Origin: Candidatus Mediterraneibacter faecipullorum
GTDB taxonomy: Bacteria; Bacillota; Clostridia; Lachnospirales; Lachnospiraceae
Assembly (NCBI GenBank): GCA_019119675.1
Contig: DWWO01000016.1
Coordinates: 1-39,826, forward strand
Direction of reading: 5' to 3'
Length of the DNA: 39,826 bases
Shown here: one piece after another, positions 28,723-32,230 of the stretch
Layout: every line of letters begins with the position of its first letter
How positions within the stretch are numbered: the stretch's first letter is position 1
Notes under the pieces: generated by a model
Told to the model about the DNA's origin: nothing
Seen by the model: only the letters and a program-made list of their open reading frames with translations
Database searches by the model: none
Translations under genes and position numbers: made by a program

Positions 28723-29241
28723 TCAGATCAGGATTACTATGAGAAAAATCCCGCTCATCACCCCAAGGCAGCTGCCAATACGCGTTTTTGCCGCCAGGCC
28801 TTCCCGGAGCTTTTCAATCTCCAGATCTAACCGGTTCAGATACATCTGCAGTGTATGATCCAGTGTATTCTGCTCAAGGCTTCCTAAAAATGTACCTGGT
28901 TCTTTCATCAGAATCGAATGTTCCTGTTTTAATCCCAGTGGTTTCAAGTATCTGTCCACGCACCGGCTCCATGCTCTTGCAAACCCGCTCTCTTCTCTCA
29001 TTTCTACCGCTCGGGCAGTTTCAAGAAGCCATGTACGGTATGGTTTTTTCACTCGTCTTGCCACCTCTGTAAATATTTCCGGCAGTGGAGCATGCGTATA
29101 AGCGATCTCGCCTTTGATCAAACTGAAAATATATCTCAGATAAAGCATTTTTTCCAGATAAGCTTTCAGTTCCCTGCAATAAACATATCCGGCTCCGGTT
29201 GTCGCAGTAAGGATCAATATCCCGCCTATCACTCTCTGCAC
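28723..29241 (-). CDS. spoIIIAB: Stage III sporulation protein AB
   Basis: The 172-aa protein resembles type II secretion GspF proteins. It has an N-terminal membrane segment (about 3-20), a helical cytoplasmic region (IFSLIKGEIAYTHAPLPEIF) and a C-terminal hydrophobic end (SGIFLIVILI). It presumably docks the SpoIIIAA ATPase. It overlaps the end of spoIIIAA by 13 nt. Confidence 0.93.
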   Translation of the reverse strand: MQRVIGGILILTATTGAGYVYCRELKAYLEKMLYLRYIFSLIKGEIAYTHAPLPEIFTEVARRVKKPYRTWLLETARAVEMREESGFARAWSRCVDRYLKPLGLKQEHSILMKEPGTFLGSLEQNTLDHTLQMYLNRLDLEIEKLREGLAAKTRIGSCLGVMSGIFLIVILI

Positions 29242-30185
29242 AGCACACTCCCCCGCTCATCATAGATTCCACGGATCTCTCCCGGGTGTTCTCCATTGCC
29301 GAGCACTACATACCGCTCGAACATCCTGCGCCGGATCAATTCACCAAGCACCGGTTTCTTCTTAGCCTCTTCCATATCAAGGCCGTGTACACTTGCGATC
29401 AGTTTGCAGCCGCACTGCATTGCATATTCTACAGCATGGATATCTTCACTTGTACCGATCTCATCCACAGCAATAACCTGCGGCGACATTGAACGGATCA
29501 GCATGATCATTCCCTCTGCTTTCGGACAGCAGTCCAGGATATCTGTCCGTGAGCCCAGATGATTCTGGGCAATACCCAGATAGCAGCCGCCCAGTTCAGA
29601 CCTCTCATCTACTACACCTACAGAACACCCCTTTACATACTGGTTCCCGTCTGATATCTGTCTGATCAGATCACGTATAAGTGTCGTCTTGCCACAGCAG
29701 GGCGGCGATATGATCAGAGTATGACATACTTGTTTATTCTTTGTGATATACGGAAGCAGACTGTCAGCACACCCGATCACTTCATGTGATACCCGGATAT
29801 TGACAGATGATATGTACTGTATGTTCTTTATCTTGTCCCTCTCCATGATCACCTTTCCAGCCACTCCTACTCTGTGCCCTCCTTCGATCGTCAAAAATCC
29901 CTGCCGCAGTTCATTCTCATATGCATAGAGGGAGTAATGGCTTATGTAGTCCATTGTCTCCCTCACTTCTTCTTTCGTAATAATATGTGGGCTCGCTTCT
30001 GACGGCAGGATCTTTTCCCTGTTGTCACACACGATCCGGACAGGCTGTCCTGTCCGAAGCCTTATTTCCTGCAGACTATCAAGGCCGCCTGTATCCTCCT
30101 GTATGATCTTTCTGACATTCTTTGCCAGAATGTTTAGTATCTGTCCGTTTCTATTTGATTCCTGTCTTCTATCACTTCTTTCCAT
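29229..30185 (-). CDS. spoIIIAA: Stage III sporulation protein AA, ATPase
   Basis: The 318-aa secretion-type ATPase (VirB11/GspE-like) is thought to power the SpoIIIA channel. Walker A reads SPPCCGKTTLIRDLIRQ (about 164-180), with Ser in place of the usual first Gly. Walker B is in VIAVDEIGTSED (about 237-248). The N-terminal domain includes EIRLRTGQPVRIV and MDYISHYSLYAYENE. The frame is open upstream, but ATG 30183-30185 is the start: AGAGGTG precedes it and the SigE-like promoter lies between the two candidate starts. First gene of an eight-gene operon. Confidence 0.95.
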   Translation of the reverse strand: MERSDRRQESNRNGQILNILAKNVRKIIQEDTGGLDSLQEIRLRTGQPVRIVCDNREKILPSEASPHIITKEEVRETMDYISHYSLYAYENELRQGFLTIEGGHRVGVAGKVIMERDKIKNIQYISSVNIRVSHEVIGCADSLLPYITKNKQVCHTLIISPPCCGKTTLIRDLIRQISDGNQYVKGCSVGVVDERSELGGCYLGIAQNHLGSRTDILDCCPKAEGMIMLIRSMSPQVIAVDEIGTSEDIHAVEYAMQCGCKLIASVHGLDMEEAKKKPVLGELIRRRMFERYVVLGNGEHPGEIRGIYDERGSVLCRE

Positions 30186-30204: not shown

Positions 30205-30232
30205 AATATATGTGGACCCACCAAAAATATGA
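30205..30232 (-). promoter_or_regulatory. SigE-like promoter of the spoIIIA operon
   Basis: TCATATT (30226-30232), 13 nt, CATATATT (30205-30212), close to the SigE pattern (ATATT, 13-15 nt, CATACA-T). Position and the known mother-cell expression of spoIIIA agree. No good SigA promoter is seen this close. Confidence 0.7.
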
Positions 30233-30302
30233 TTGAAATTTCGTATTTGTCGGAGTGACATCCTATAATAAAATCATCCGAAAATCAAGTGGATACAGAG
30301 GA

Positions 30303-30371
30303 ATGACGACGTATGTATTCGAATCAGGCGGGATTGTAATGCTTCCGGCTCCGGTTACGAAAGGAAGATAA
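30303..30371 (+). CDS. Possible 22-aa peptide, very uncertain
   Basis: A plus-strand ATG frame of 22 codons (MTTYVFESGGIVMLPAPVTK and two more residues). AGAGGA abuts the ATG with no spacing, which is poor for initiation. TATAAT lies at 30264-30269 upstream, but without a good -35. It may be coincidental. Confidence 0.12.
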   Translation: MTTYVFESGGIVMLPAPVTKGR

Positions 30372-30479
30372 ACTAATAACCCTGAAATATAGCTAAAAAC
30401 AATCAGCCAGACGAACAACTCGCAATGCTCAAACAAGTCCGTCTGGCTGATTAACGCTATATCTCAGGGTTAAAGTTTA
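30369..30479 (-). terminator. 111-nt nested hairpin; inner part acts as likely miaB terminator
   Basis: Outer stem: 30378-30393 pairs with 30456-30471 at 15 of 16 positions, and six further pairs close at 30369-30374 with 30474-30479. Inner stem: a perfect 13 bp, 30401-30413 with 30440-30452 (arms AATCAGCCAGACG and CGTCTGGCTGATT) around a 26-nt loop. On the minus strand the inner stem is followed by GTTTTTAGC, which fits termination of the miaB transcript. The outer stem is more than a terminator needs. Confidence 0.75.
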
Positions 30480-30574
30480 TTTAGCCTTTCTTCACAGTCA
30501 CCGTCCGCATCACAGTCCCCCTGATCCGAAAGATACATCATATCGGCTGTATCCGTTTGATTTTCTGGGCTCAT
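30470..30574 (-). CDS. Possible 34-aa acidic peptide, very uncertain
   Basis: A minus-strand ATG frame of 34 codons. The peptide is acidic with two cysteines (GDCDADGDCEERLNKL at the C-terminus). GAGGAG lies 14 nt upstream, longer than ideal. It ends at the foot of the nested hairpin. No family recognised; possibly the remnant of a larger gene. Confidence 0.15.
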   Translation of the reverse strand: MSPENQTDTADMMYLSDQGDCDADGDCEERLNKL

Positions 30575-30619
30575 CCAATCGGAAGTGTCTCCTCGACAAT
30601 CGCGAAATTTACGGGAAAT

Positions 30620-30670
30620 CGGTTGAAAGGGTGAACTTTATCGACTACGTCCCCATTTCAACCGTTTTTT
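30620..30670 (+). terminator. Plus-strand terminator-like hairpin downstream of miaB
   Basis: CGGTTGAAA (30620-30628) pairs perfectly with TTTCAACCG (30656-30664), with three more G-C pairs after a one-base bulge. It is followed on the plus strand by six T. It would stop rightward transcription before it runs antisense into miaB. Confidence 0.55.
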
Positions 30671-30728
30671 CTAACTTTCGGCTTTGTCGGAGTGACTGCC
30701 GGATTCGATGAAGCAGAAAACTGACGGA

Positions 30729-32180
30729 TCATATATCATCGACATTCAGTCCGATAAAGTAGAATCCCCTGCATTCTTTCAGCAGCACCTGATAAAATTT
30801 ACCGATCATGGAAGCATCGCCCGGGAAATGGACGAGCAGATTATTGCTCAGTCGTCCTGTCACGAGGCTGCTGTCATGATCATTTACTGATTCTACCAGA
30901 GCGGTCTGCACAGTCCCTTCATGGACAGCGCACACTTCTGCGGAGATATCCTGTACTTCTCCCAGCAGTCTGTTGAACCGGTCTTTTACGACATCTTCCG
31001 GCACCTGATCTTTCATTACTGCGGCAGGCGTACCGGTGCGTTTAGAATAGATAAACGTAAAAGCGCTGTCATAGCGGACTTTCCTTACTACATCGAGTGT
31101 CTCCCGGAAGTCTTCTTCTGTTTCTCCCGGGAAGCCTACAATGATGTCCGTGGTCAGAGAAATGTCCGGTATAGCTTTTTTGATACGGCTGACCAGCTCG
31201 AGATATCCTTCCTTTGTATATCGCCGGTTCATCATTTCCAGAATCCTGGTGCTGCCCGACTGCACCGGAAGATGCAGATGACGGCAGATTTTTTTTGACT
31301 CAGCCATAACACGGATCAGCTCATCCGAGAGATCTTTCGGGTGTGAGGTCATGAAACGGATACGTTCCAGTCCCTCTATCTTCTCAATTTCTTTCAATAG
31401 ACCGGCAAATGTGACCGGATGCTCAAGTGTCTTGCCGTAAGAATTTACATTCTGCCCAAGGAGCATAACTTCAACCACACCGTCAGCCACGAGACGTTCA
31501 ATCTCCCGGATGATCGCCTTTGGATCACGGCTCCGTTCCCGCCCGCGCACATAGGGTACAATACAGTAGCTGCAGAAATTATTACATCCGAACATGATAT
31601 TGACTCCGGATTTAAAGGGATATTTTCTCTCTACAGGCAGATCTTCTACAATCTTATCTGTATCTTTCCAGATGTCGATCACTGTGCGTCCGGATTCCAT
31701 GCGGGTTGCCAGAAGTTCGGCAAATTTAAAAATATTGTGGGTGCCGAAGATCAGGTCTACAAAACGATAACTCTTTTTTAATTTCTCTACCACTTCGGGC
31801 TCCTGCATCATGCAGCCGCACAGTGCGATCATCATGTGCGGATTTTTCTTTTTGATCCTGCCGAGCTGGCCAAGGCGTCCGTATACTCTCTGGTTTGCAT
31901 TTTCGCGGACAGTACACGTATTATAGATGACAAAGTCAGCCTTTTCTTCTTCAGGTTCTTCGATGTAACCAATCTGCTCAAGGATGCCGGTCAGTTTTTC
32001 CGAATCACGCGCGTTCATCTGACAGCCAAATGTAGTGACACAAAAAGTGAGCGGCCGGCCGGCCGCCTCGCTCATTTTTTCCAGATATTTTTTTGCTCTG
32101 TCAATAAAATAATACTGCCGCTGAGGTTCTGTAGACGGGATATCTGTATCCTGTCCGGCAGCGTTCCATATATTCTCCAT
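30729..32180 (-). CDS. miaB: tRNA-2-methylthio-N6-dimethylallyladenosine synthase
   Basis: Radical-SAM methylthiotransferase modifying A37 of tRNAs that read UNN codons. The 483-aa protein has the N-terminal UPF0004 domain with three cluster cysteines (TFGCQMNARDSE, YNTCTVREN, ALCGCMMQ). The radical-SAM motif is GCNNFCSYCIVPYVRGRE (CxxxCxxC, about 194-211). A C-terminal TRAM RNA-binding domain follows. An upstream TTG is in frame, but ATG 32178-32180 sits after GGAAGG and is preferred. It is separated from spoIIIAA by the unusual repeat region. Confidence 0.96.
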   Translation of the reverse strand: MENIWNAAGQDTDIPSTEPQRQYYFIDRAKKYLEKMSEAAGRPLTFCVTTFGCQMNARDSEKLTGILEQIGYIEEPEEEKADFVIYNTCTVRENANQRVYGRLGQLGRIKKKNPHMMIALCGCMMQEPEVVEKLKKSYRFVDLIFGTHNIFKFAELLATRMESGRTVIDIWKDTDKIVEDLPVERKYPFKSGVNIMFGCNNFCSYCIVPYVRGRERSRDPKAIIREIERLVADGVVEVMLLGQNVNSYGKTLEHPVTFAGLLKEIEKIEGLERIRFMTSHPKDLSDELIRVMAESKKICRHLHLPVQSGSTRILEMMNRRYTKEGYLELVSRIKKAIPDISLTTDIIVGFPGETEEDFRETLDVVRKVRYDSAFTFIYSKRTGTPAAVMKDQVPEDVVKDRFNRLLGEVQDISAEVCAVHEGTVQTALVESVNDHDSSLVTGRLSNNLLVHFPGDASMIGKFYQVLLKECRGFYFIGLNVDDI

Positions 32181-32230
32181 ACTACCTTCCAATCTTATGT
32201 AATCTTCCTGTACTGAAATCTGTCGTAATA

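Follow-up and report, generated by a model that had tools for sequence, protein, structure and literature searches.

A dispersed, two-armed palindromic element in the miaB–spoIIIAA spacer of Candidatus Mediterraneibacter faecipullorum, a candidate two-way transcription barrier

What is the long, structured, non-coding sequence that separates miaB from spoIIIAA in Candidatus Mediterraneibacter faecipullorum? The window (all 39,826 nucleotides of contig DWWO01000016.1) is otherwise gene-dense, and to an earlier note this spacer looked inserted: it could be either a mobile or interspersed repeat framed by a target-site duplication, or a structured RNA gene.

Extent and parts of the element in the spacer

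The names given to the two neighbours fit their Pfam families (all other gene names below, VanZ excepted, were assigned by eye from translations). The direct repeats on which the earlier note relied are real (30236-30259 and 30673-30696, 88% identical over 24 nt, spacing 437), but they were wrongly taken as borders. A profile search of the whole window puts the limits of the unit at about 30237 and about 30758. A complete arm of family I was found at 30240-30608 (nhmmer, whole window, E 7e-99, 324.8 bits), together with two minus-strand pieces of a second arm, 30728-30683 (model positions 308-353, E 4e-9) and 30758-30725 (model positions 7-41, E 0.07, a weak match when taken alone), from which about 266 model positions are missing internally. 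We therefore rejected the repeats, matching at 18 of 20 positions, as a target-site duplication: one is arm I's outer end and the other the second arm's inner end, and it is the inversion of the second arm that gives both one direction. The features are as follows.

29229..30185, minus strand: spoIIIAA, the downstream neighbour (Spore_III_AA, 553.5 bits)
30205..30232, minus strand: promoter-like sequence of spoIIIAA, TCATATTT-12-CATATATT, beside the end of arm I (similar motif before spoIIIAA in short and long gaps of relatives)
30237..30611, unstranded: arm I, a complete family I quasi-palindromic arm of about 370 bp (nhmmer match, own-genome copies, 30-copy alignment)
30369..30479, minus strand: apical part of arm I, where the 111-nt hairpin of the earlier note is placed (repeats, alignment, helices 11-13)
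30612..30680, unstranded: linker hairpin between the arms, stem AAATCGGTTGAAA/TTTCAACCGTTTTTT (inverted repeat I2 and a fold of z only -1.6)
30683..30758, minus strand: remnant of the second arm (two model pieces, and alignment with L098, where the second arm at this locus is full-length)
30729..30749, minus strand: terminal codons of miaB, LNVDDI and stop (open reading frame, tails of relatives, alignment)
30729..32192, minus strand: miaB, the upstream neighbour, its 3' end entered by the element (Radical_SAM, UPF0004 and TRAM matches, open reading frame)

The inverted repeat of the 111-nt hairpin holds (30401-30416/30437-30452, 94%), although the hairpin is merely the tip of a fold covering 30237-30611. 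The stem of the apical part varies; read on the minus strand, the alignment shows that its loop, TGTYTGAG..CGAGTT, is conserved and that there is an internal loop, GCGTTAA/TTGYTTTTAGC. With its outer end (30237) arm I faces the promoter-like sequence of spoIIIAA, which is sigma-E-like by consensus; its inner end lies at 30611. A linker similar to that of the window follows the inner end in many of the 70 arm copies described below (by eye).

In relatives, the MiaB tails after FYYIG are other short ones, such as GERV, GEQIK and GERNS. We read the LNVDDI end as probably derived from the arm end, and the window copy as one in which an internal deletion of the second arm was accompanied by a join into miaB, which would be why this MiaB ends in LNVDDI. 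By these alignments the spacer is a damaged copy, with most of the second arm apparently lost and the remnant entering miaB.

Copies, two-arm units and filled or short gaps in relatives

A blast search with 30230-30710 gave 28 matches in the genome itself (counting the window and its own palindromic match), many of them at contig ends; in practical terms, a number of the contigs of this genome end inside these elements. Three contigs (C1, C30 and C152) open with arm ends sharing 96-100% identity over 42-50 nt and then diverge, two of them being identical at 42 of 42 nt, and this near identity would count for recent spread. Family I copies within one genome average 75% identity, no higher than between genomes, and most of the spread is therefore old.

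Profile searches over the collected loci gave 70 distinct full-length arms of 312-378 bp (retained from 312 profile matches upon removal of partial matches, second orientations and duplicate loci). Above 280 bits stand 32 arms, which resemble the window copy and are called family I, whereas the other 38 belong to further families having the same layout. The inner ends face each other at all 15 loci with two arms. Ten of these loci have 66-75 bp between the arms, giving an arm, linker and inverted arm unit of 787-796 bp, and nine of the ten pair a family I arm with an arm of another family. The two outer ends of a two-arm unit match one and the same end of the model, inverted with respect to each other, and hence the units have terminal inverted repeats. 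Family III has outer ends of the same kind and its copies begin and end with the same sequence; they are mostly 620-685 bp, with one of 517 and one of 310 bp. A protein-coding role for the arm was rejected. Among 30 copies, some have no stop-free run longer than 43 codons (plus strand) or 39 codons (minus strand), and therefore no longer frame can be common to all 30, although runs of up to 111 codons are found in other copies.

Matches were obtained in 15 of 61 genomes in a search of relatives, all in the same genus (37 of the 61 genomes) and several of them weak or partial; the carriers are mainly Mediterraneibacter. These are gut bacteria, and chicken appears in the records of many of the relatives. 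Among 299 genomes of the family (apparently one per genus), searched with one family I query and with few candidates scored per genome, the only matches were to the genome itself and one marginal match of 40 nt. Carriage by phages or plasmids was rejected, as neither gave a match, and four viral contigs having a conserved 17-mer were taken as chance occurrences, as they had no match to the arm profile. Rfam gave no match at gathering scores in the window; by E-value, the window stretch and 16 loci returned only microRNA-hairpin families far below those scores. In the open-access library that was searched, no listed paper describes such an element, judged by title or the start of the abstract.

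Of 73 related loci, 28 allowed the length of the miaB-spoIIIAA gap to be determined (in the other 45 the end of miaB was not located). It is 27-110 nt in 15 loci, 113-190 nt in four (one of which, L101, keeps a piece resembling family I) and at least 246 nt in nine. By eye, the long gaps differ in content: L098 has an arm of a second family together with another structure, L103 and L136 have family III in opposite orientations, L104 and L109 have a shorter palindrome, and some others have sequence lacking such arms. In M. catenae (L100) the gap contains a further palindromic sequence (..GGGAGGTATGTATTGTTATCGCACAC..), similar pieces of which are seen in L173 and L205.

Between aroA and a kinase gene, 14 of 30 loci have a measurable gap. 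In seven of these there are arms, which in every case start at the stop codons on both sides. Their forms are a lone arm, an arm followed by a linker and an incomplete second arm, a pair of half arms joined together, and arms flanking a VanZ-like gene. The other seven gaps are 18, 46, 61, 100, 349, 721 and 1293 nt. The VanZ-family gene (PF04892, 5e-21) lies between two arms at L095:2170-2676 and by eye also in L199 and L207, indicating that units can hold cargo. Between degV and a transporter gene only 6 nt separate the stop codons in G036 and G027, whereas G004 has a 681-bp element. At the site of L081, G000 keeps a single end sequence only, and at that of L082 G000 looks clean whereas G076 and G002 have apparent remnants.

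These short or empty versus filled gaps indicate that whole units come and go, and they already speak against strictly orthologous copies. The exact fit between stop codons arises at least partly because the original gaps were tiny. At three sites for which relatives have an empty or nearly empty counterpart, inspection by eye revealed no target duplication, although the sequences have diverged. Of the proposals in the earlier note, the interspersed repeat is borne out by copies in this genome and in relatives of the genus, and insertion by the short miaB-spoIIIAA gaps; target-site duplication found no support, and a stand-alone structured RNA gene is left with no Rfam family. We also looked for the opposite outcome, a sequence at one locus only with neither other copies nor empty sites, and the mobile-element idea survived.

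Two further structures were observed in the genus. In two other species (L185 and L187) a palindrome of about 60 bp with related-looking ends fills the stop-to-stop gap behind a ferritin-like gene. At L093:2038-3812, downstream of a thioredoxin-reductase-like gene (named by eye), two open reading frames of 308 and 277 aa with no Pfam family lie between element copies.

Fold, strand asymmetry and position at stop codons

Folded as RNA, the window arm (30237-30611) has a minimum free energy of -171.7 kcal/mol (z -13.5) and 0 of 100 shuffles were as good. RNAalifold on 30 of the 32 family I arms (alignment A2) gave 85 pairs, 44 of which have a kept double change. The minus-strand fold supplied a fuller structure, with 134 pairs, in which 69 pairs were changed on both sides versus 52 in shuffles, and 87.9% of the cells pair versus 79.3% in shuffles. 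Double-change cells numbered 409 versus 152 (sd 9.5) in shuffles and 49-68 in slid controls, a comparison in which the structure is favoured because it was derived from the tested copies. Pair types are no higher than in shuffles (145 versus 144). Pair 185-226 illustrates the changes: 12 copies have GC there, 10 have CG and 6 have UA. The apical and internal loops, in contrast, are mostly conserved. The aligned copies thus show an arm fold maintained by compensatory changes, which bears out the covariation of the arms that the earlier note had put forward as a check on its RNA idea.

The mismatches are unequal between strands. For the pairs of the plus-strand fold, family I has 129 A.C and 68 G.U mismatches on the window plus strand and the other families have 219 and 134 on the plus orientation, cells that are not independent owing to shared ancestry, so that p-values are not to be taken at face value. 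G.U therefore prevails on the other strand of each arm. If the palindrome mattered only as double-stranded DNA, neither G.U nor A.C should prevail, as G.T on one strand is A.C on the other. An RNA-level role is thus possible, since G.U is the favoured mismatch on one of the strands. If mutation were coupled to transcription of the adjoining gene, an asymmetry of the opposite sign would be expected. A mutational cause of the asymmetry could nevertheless apply.

The G.U-tolerating strand leads away from the linker, towards the neighbouring gene's stop codon, and on it TTGYTTTTAGC follows the apical hairpin. This direction is what a barrier to antisense read-through would require. An intrinsic terminator would consist of a hairpin with a T-run behind it; a simple terminator scan allowing loops of up to 8 nt found none.

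Position relative to genes is polar. The outer (5' in the model) end lies at a stop codon in 60 of 68 arms, versus 4 of 65 for the inner end and 115 of 4000 random positions in the longer loci (a stop within -12 to +13 nt, closing an open frame of at least 110 codons; two outer and five inner ends with short flanks were left out, and the same gene end in several species is included). When the 87 ends with a facing open frame were reduced to 62 gene ends by protein tail, 44 of the 62 were within 14 nt of the arm end. Both neighbours could be called for 58 arms, 37 of which lie between convergent and 21 between co-directional open reading frames. The window is an exception in that its arm I end faces a promoter-like sequence; its neighbours are co-directional. 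In two species (L174 and L084) another repeated hairpin (GAACAAAATCGCTACGCGATGGC..) directly adjoins the outer arm end.

Possible modes of action and of spread

We lean towards the view that this is a Mediterraneibacter-restricted, non-autonomous dispersed element acting as a two-way transcription barrier, of which the window has a degraded copy; the dispersal is shown by the comparisons above, whereas mechanism and function are inferred. Units would enter very small gaps, often between convergent genes, and each arm would stop, in one direction and much as a terminator does, the transcripts that come in from the opposite gene, such that the arm pair makes a two-way barrier. Spread could be by a putative transposase acting in trans or by ectopic recombination. 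Several observations weigh against this barrier reading. The linker folds weakly (10 of 200 shuffles as good as its z of -1.6), and a script test found the linker hairpin in only 18 of the 70 copies, with a T-run behind five of these. The negative terminator scan, the age of most copies and pair types not above shuffles point the same way, as does a window copy that is damaged and sits between co-directional genes. No mobilising enzyme was found in a transposase search of the Y1_Tnp family, nor any target duplication. If the element does end transcripts, a dispersed element would set where many transcripts stop, and sites filled in one species and empty in another make it testable whether the repeats are kept for RNA function or merely spread. 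Compared with the short bacterial repeats in the portions of the literature available to us, this is a large element, in many cases two-armed and then of uniform length, that is maintained by covariation over many copies and is polar at stop codons.

The nearest competitor, which we consider unlikely, is a classical MITE whose ends are terminal inverted repeats for a DDE transposase acting in trans at TA targets, the stop-codon position being due to selection and tiny gaps only. The outer ends are often TA+AATTCG (by eye, among the matches listed), a 6-nt gap between stop codons forces any insertion to lie at both stops, and one G000 site was left with a single end sequence. Against this, the flanking dinucleotides vary at five G004 sites, L078-L082 (GA/CA, GA/TA, TA/TA, GG/TC and CA/TT, by eye), no target duplication was seen, and in three genomes exact copies of the 11-mer ATTCGTGTTTG never face each other at 0.8-5 kb, a distance that would leave room for a transposase gene. 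Bacterial MITEs (NEMIS/Correia, ERIC, RUP and YAPL), in the sections of PMC2229807 drawn on here, are below 200 bp and most have TA ends and target duplications. The element shares their terminal inverted repeats, dispersal in intergenic space and absence of protein (MITEs also have long stem-loop transcripts), but is larger, two-armed and polar at stop codons, and none of the target duplications usual in MITEs was seen. Caulobacter CIR, as far as the same source describes it, also has two stem-loop arms with a linker and does not lie inside genes; that description sets it apart in size, stop-codon position and taxon (PMC2229807).

Somewhat less likely still is that the element is immobile, ancient spacer palindromes having been homogenised and swapped by ectopic gene conversion among existing copies. 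This would account for different arm families in the same gap across species with the gene ends unchanged, for family III in opposite orientations in L103 versus L136 at the miaB site, and for the gap that looks like two joined half arms (L204, by eye). However, the short or empty gaps at several loci in related species need whole-unit gains or losses.

A stronger form of the barrier reading seems to us improbable: in it the folded single strand (RNA, or one defined DNA strand per arm) would be both the moving and the functional form of a mobile two-way barrier, entering convergent gaps and installing or replacing transcript ends.

Quite doubtful is an element of REP/BIME type that the genomes' own RAYT-like tyrosine transposase would move. 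In the passages of PMC3733652 that we could draw on, REPs are extragenic palindromes located mostly between convergent or co-directional genes, they often touch genes and supply the stop codon, and GT pairing of stem residues is taken as a sign of RNA function (for other REP literature see PMC3116915 and PMC2817692). The present element resembles REP/BIME/REPIN with RAYT in these respects of location, stop contact and G.U pairing (PMC3733652). It fails on size and tag, however, REPs being described as 20-40 bp long with a GTAG or CGTC tag, whereas the arms here are about 370 bp with ATTCGTG-type ends and the units about 790 bp. A Y1_Tnp protein of 255-285 aa does occur in the same neighbourhood (glyS by eye) in the eight genomes inspected, six of them carriers, and the 11-mer GGGGACGTAGT is common to the palindromes flanking its gene and the window linker. 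Yet the 11-mer is in few linkers of the arm copies, and the 350-nt flanks of the gene in the eight genomes carry another palindrome, GGGGACGTAGTNAAA, a separate repeat with 14-25 matches per strand in five carriers and none in the window contig; an origin of the linker from this system was rejected on these grounds. Moreover, arms without any Y1_Tnp match occur in G036 and G074, and the Y1_Tnp gene without a family I match in G010 and G023.

A single structured RNA gene or riboswitch of spoIIIAA, suggested by a strong covarying fold adjoining the promoter, is refuted by the many copies beside unrelated genes and by gaps no longer than 110 nt at this locus in 15 of the 28 relatives, and with no Rfam family either we give it almost no weight.

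The RAYT-like gene and the GGGGACGTAGTNAAA palindrome look like a REP-RAYT system of their own. The gene lies beside a glyS-like gene in eight Mediterraneibacter genomes (L246, L237, L247, L238, L245, L240, L236 and L239), and the palindrome (GGGGACGTAGTNAAA..) occurs 11-25 times per strand in seven of ten genomes and 0-1 times in G001, G018 and G028, compared with 0-4 for controls.
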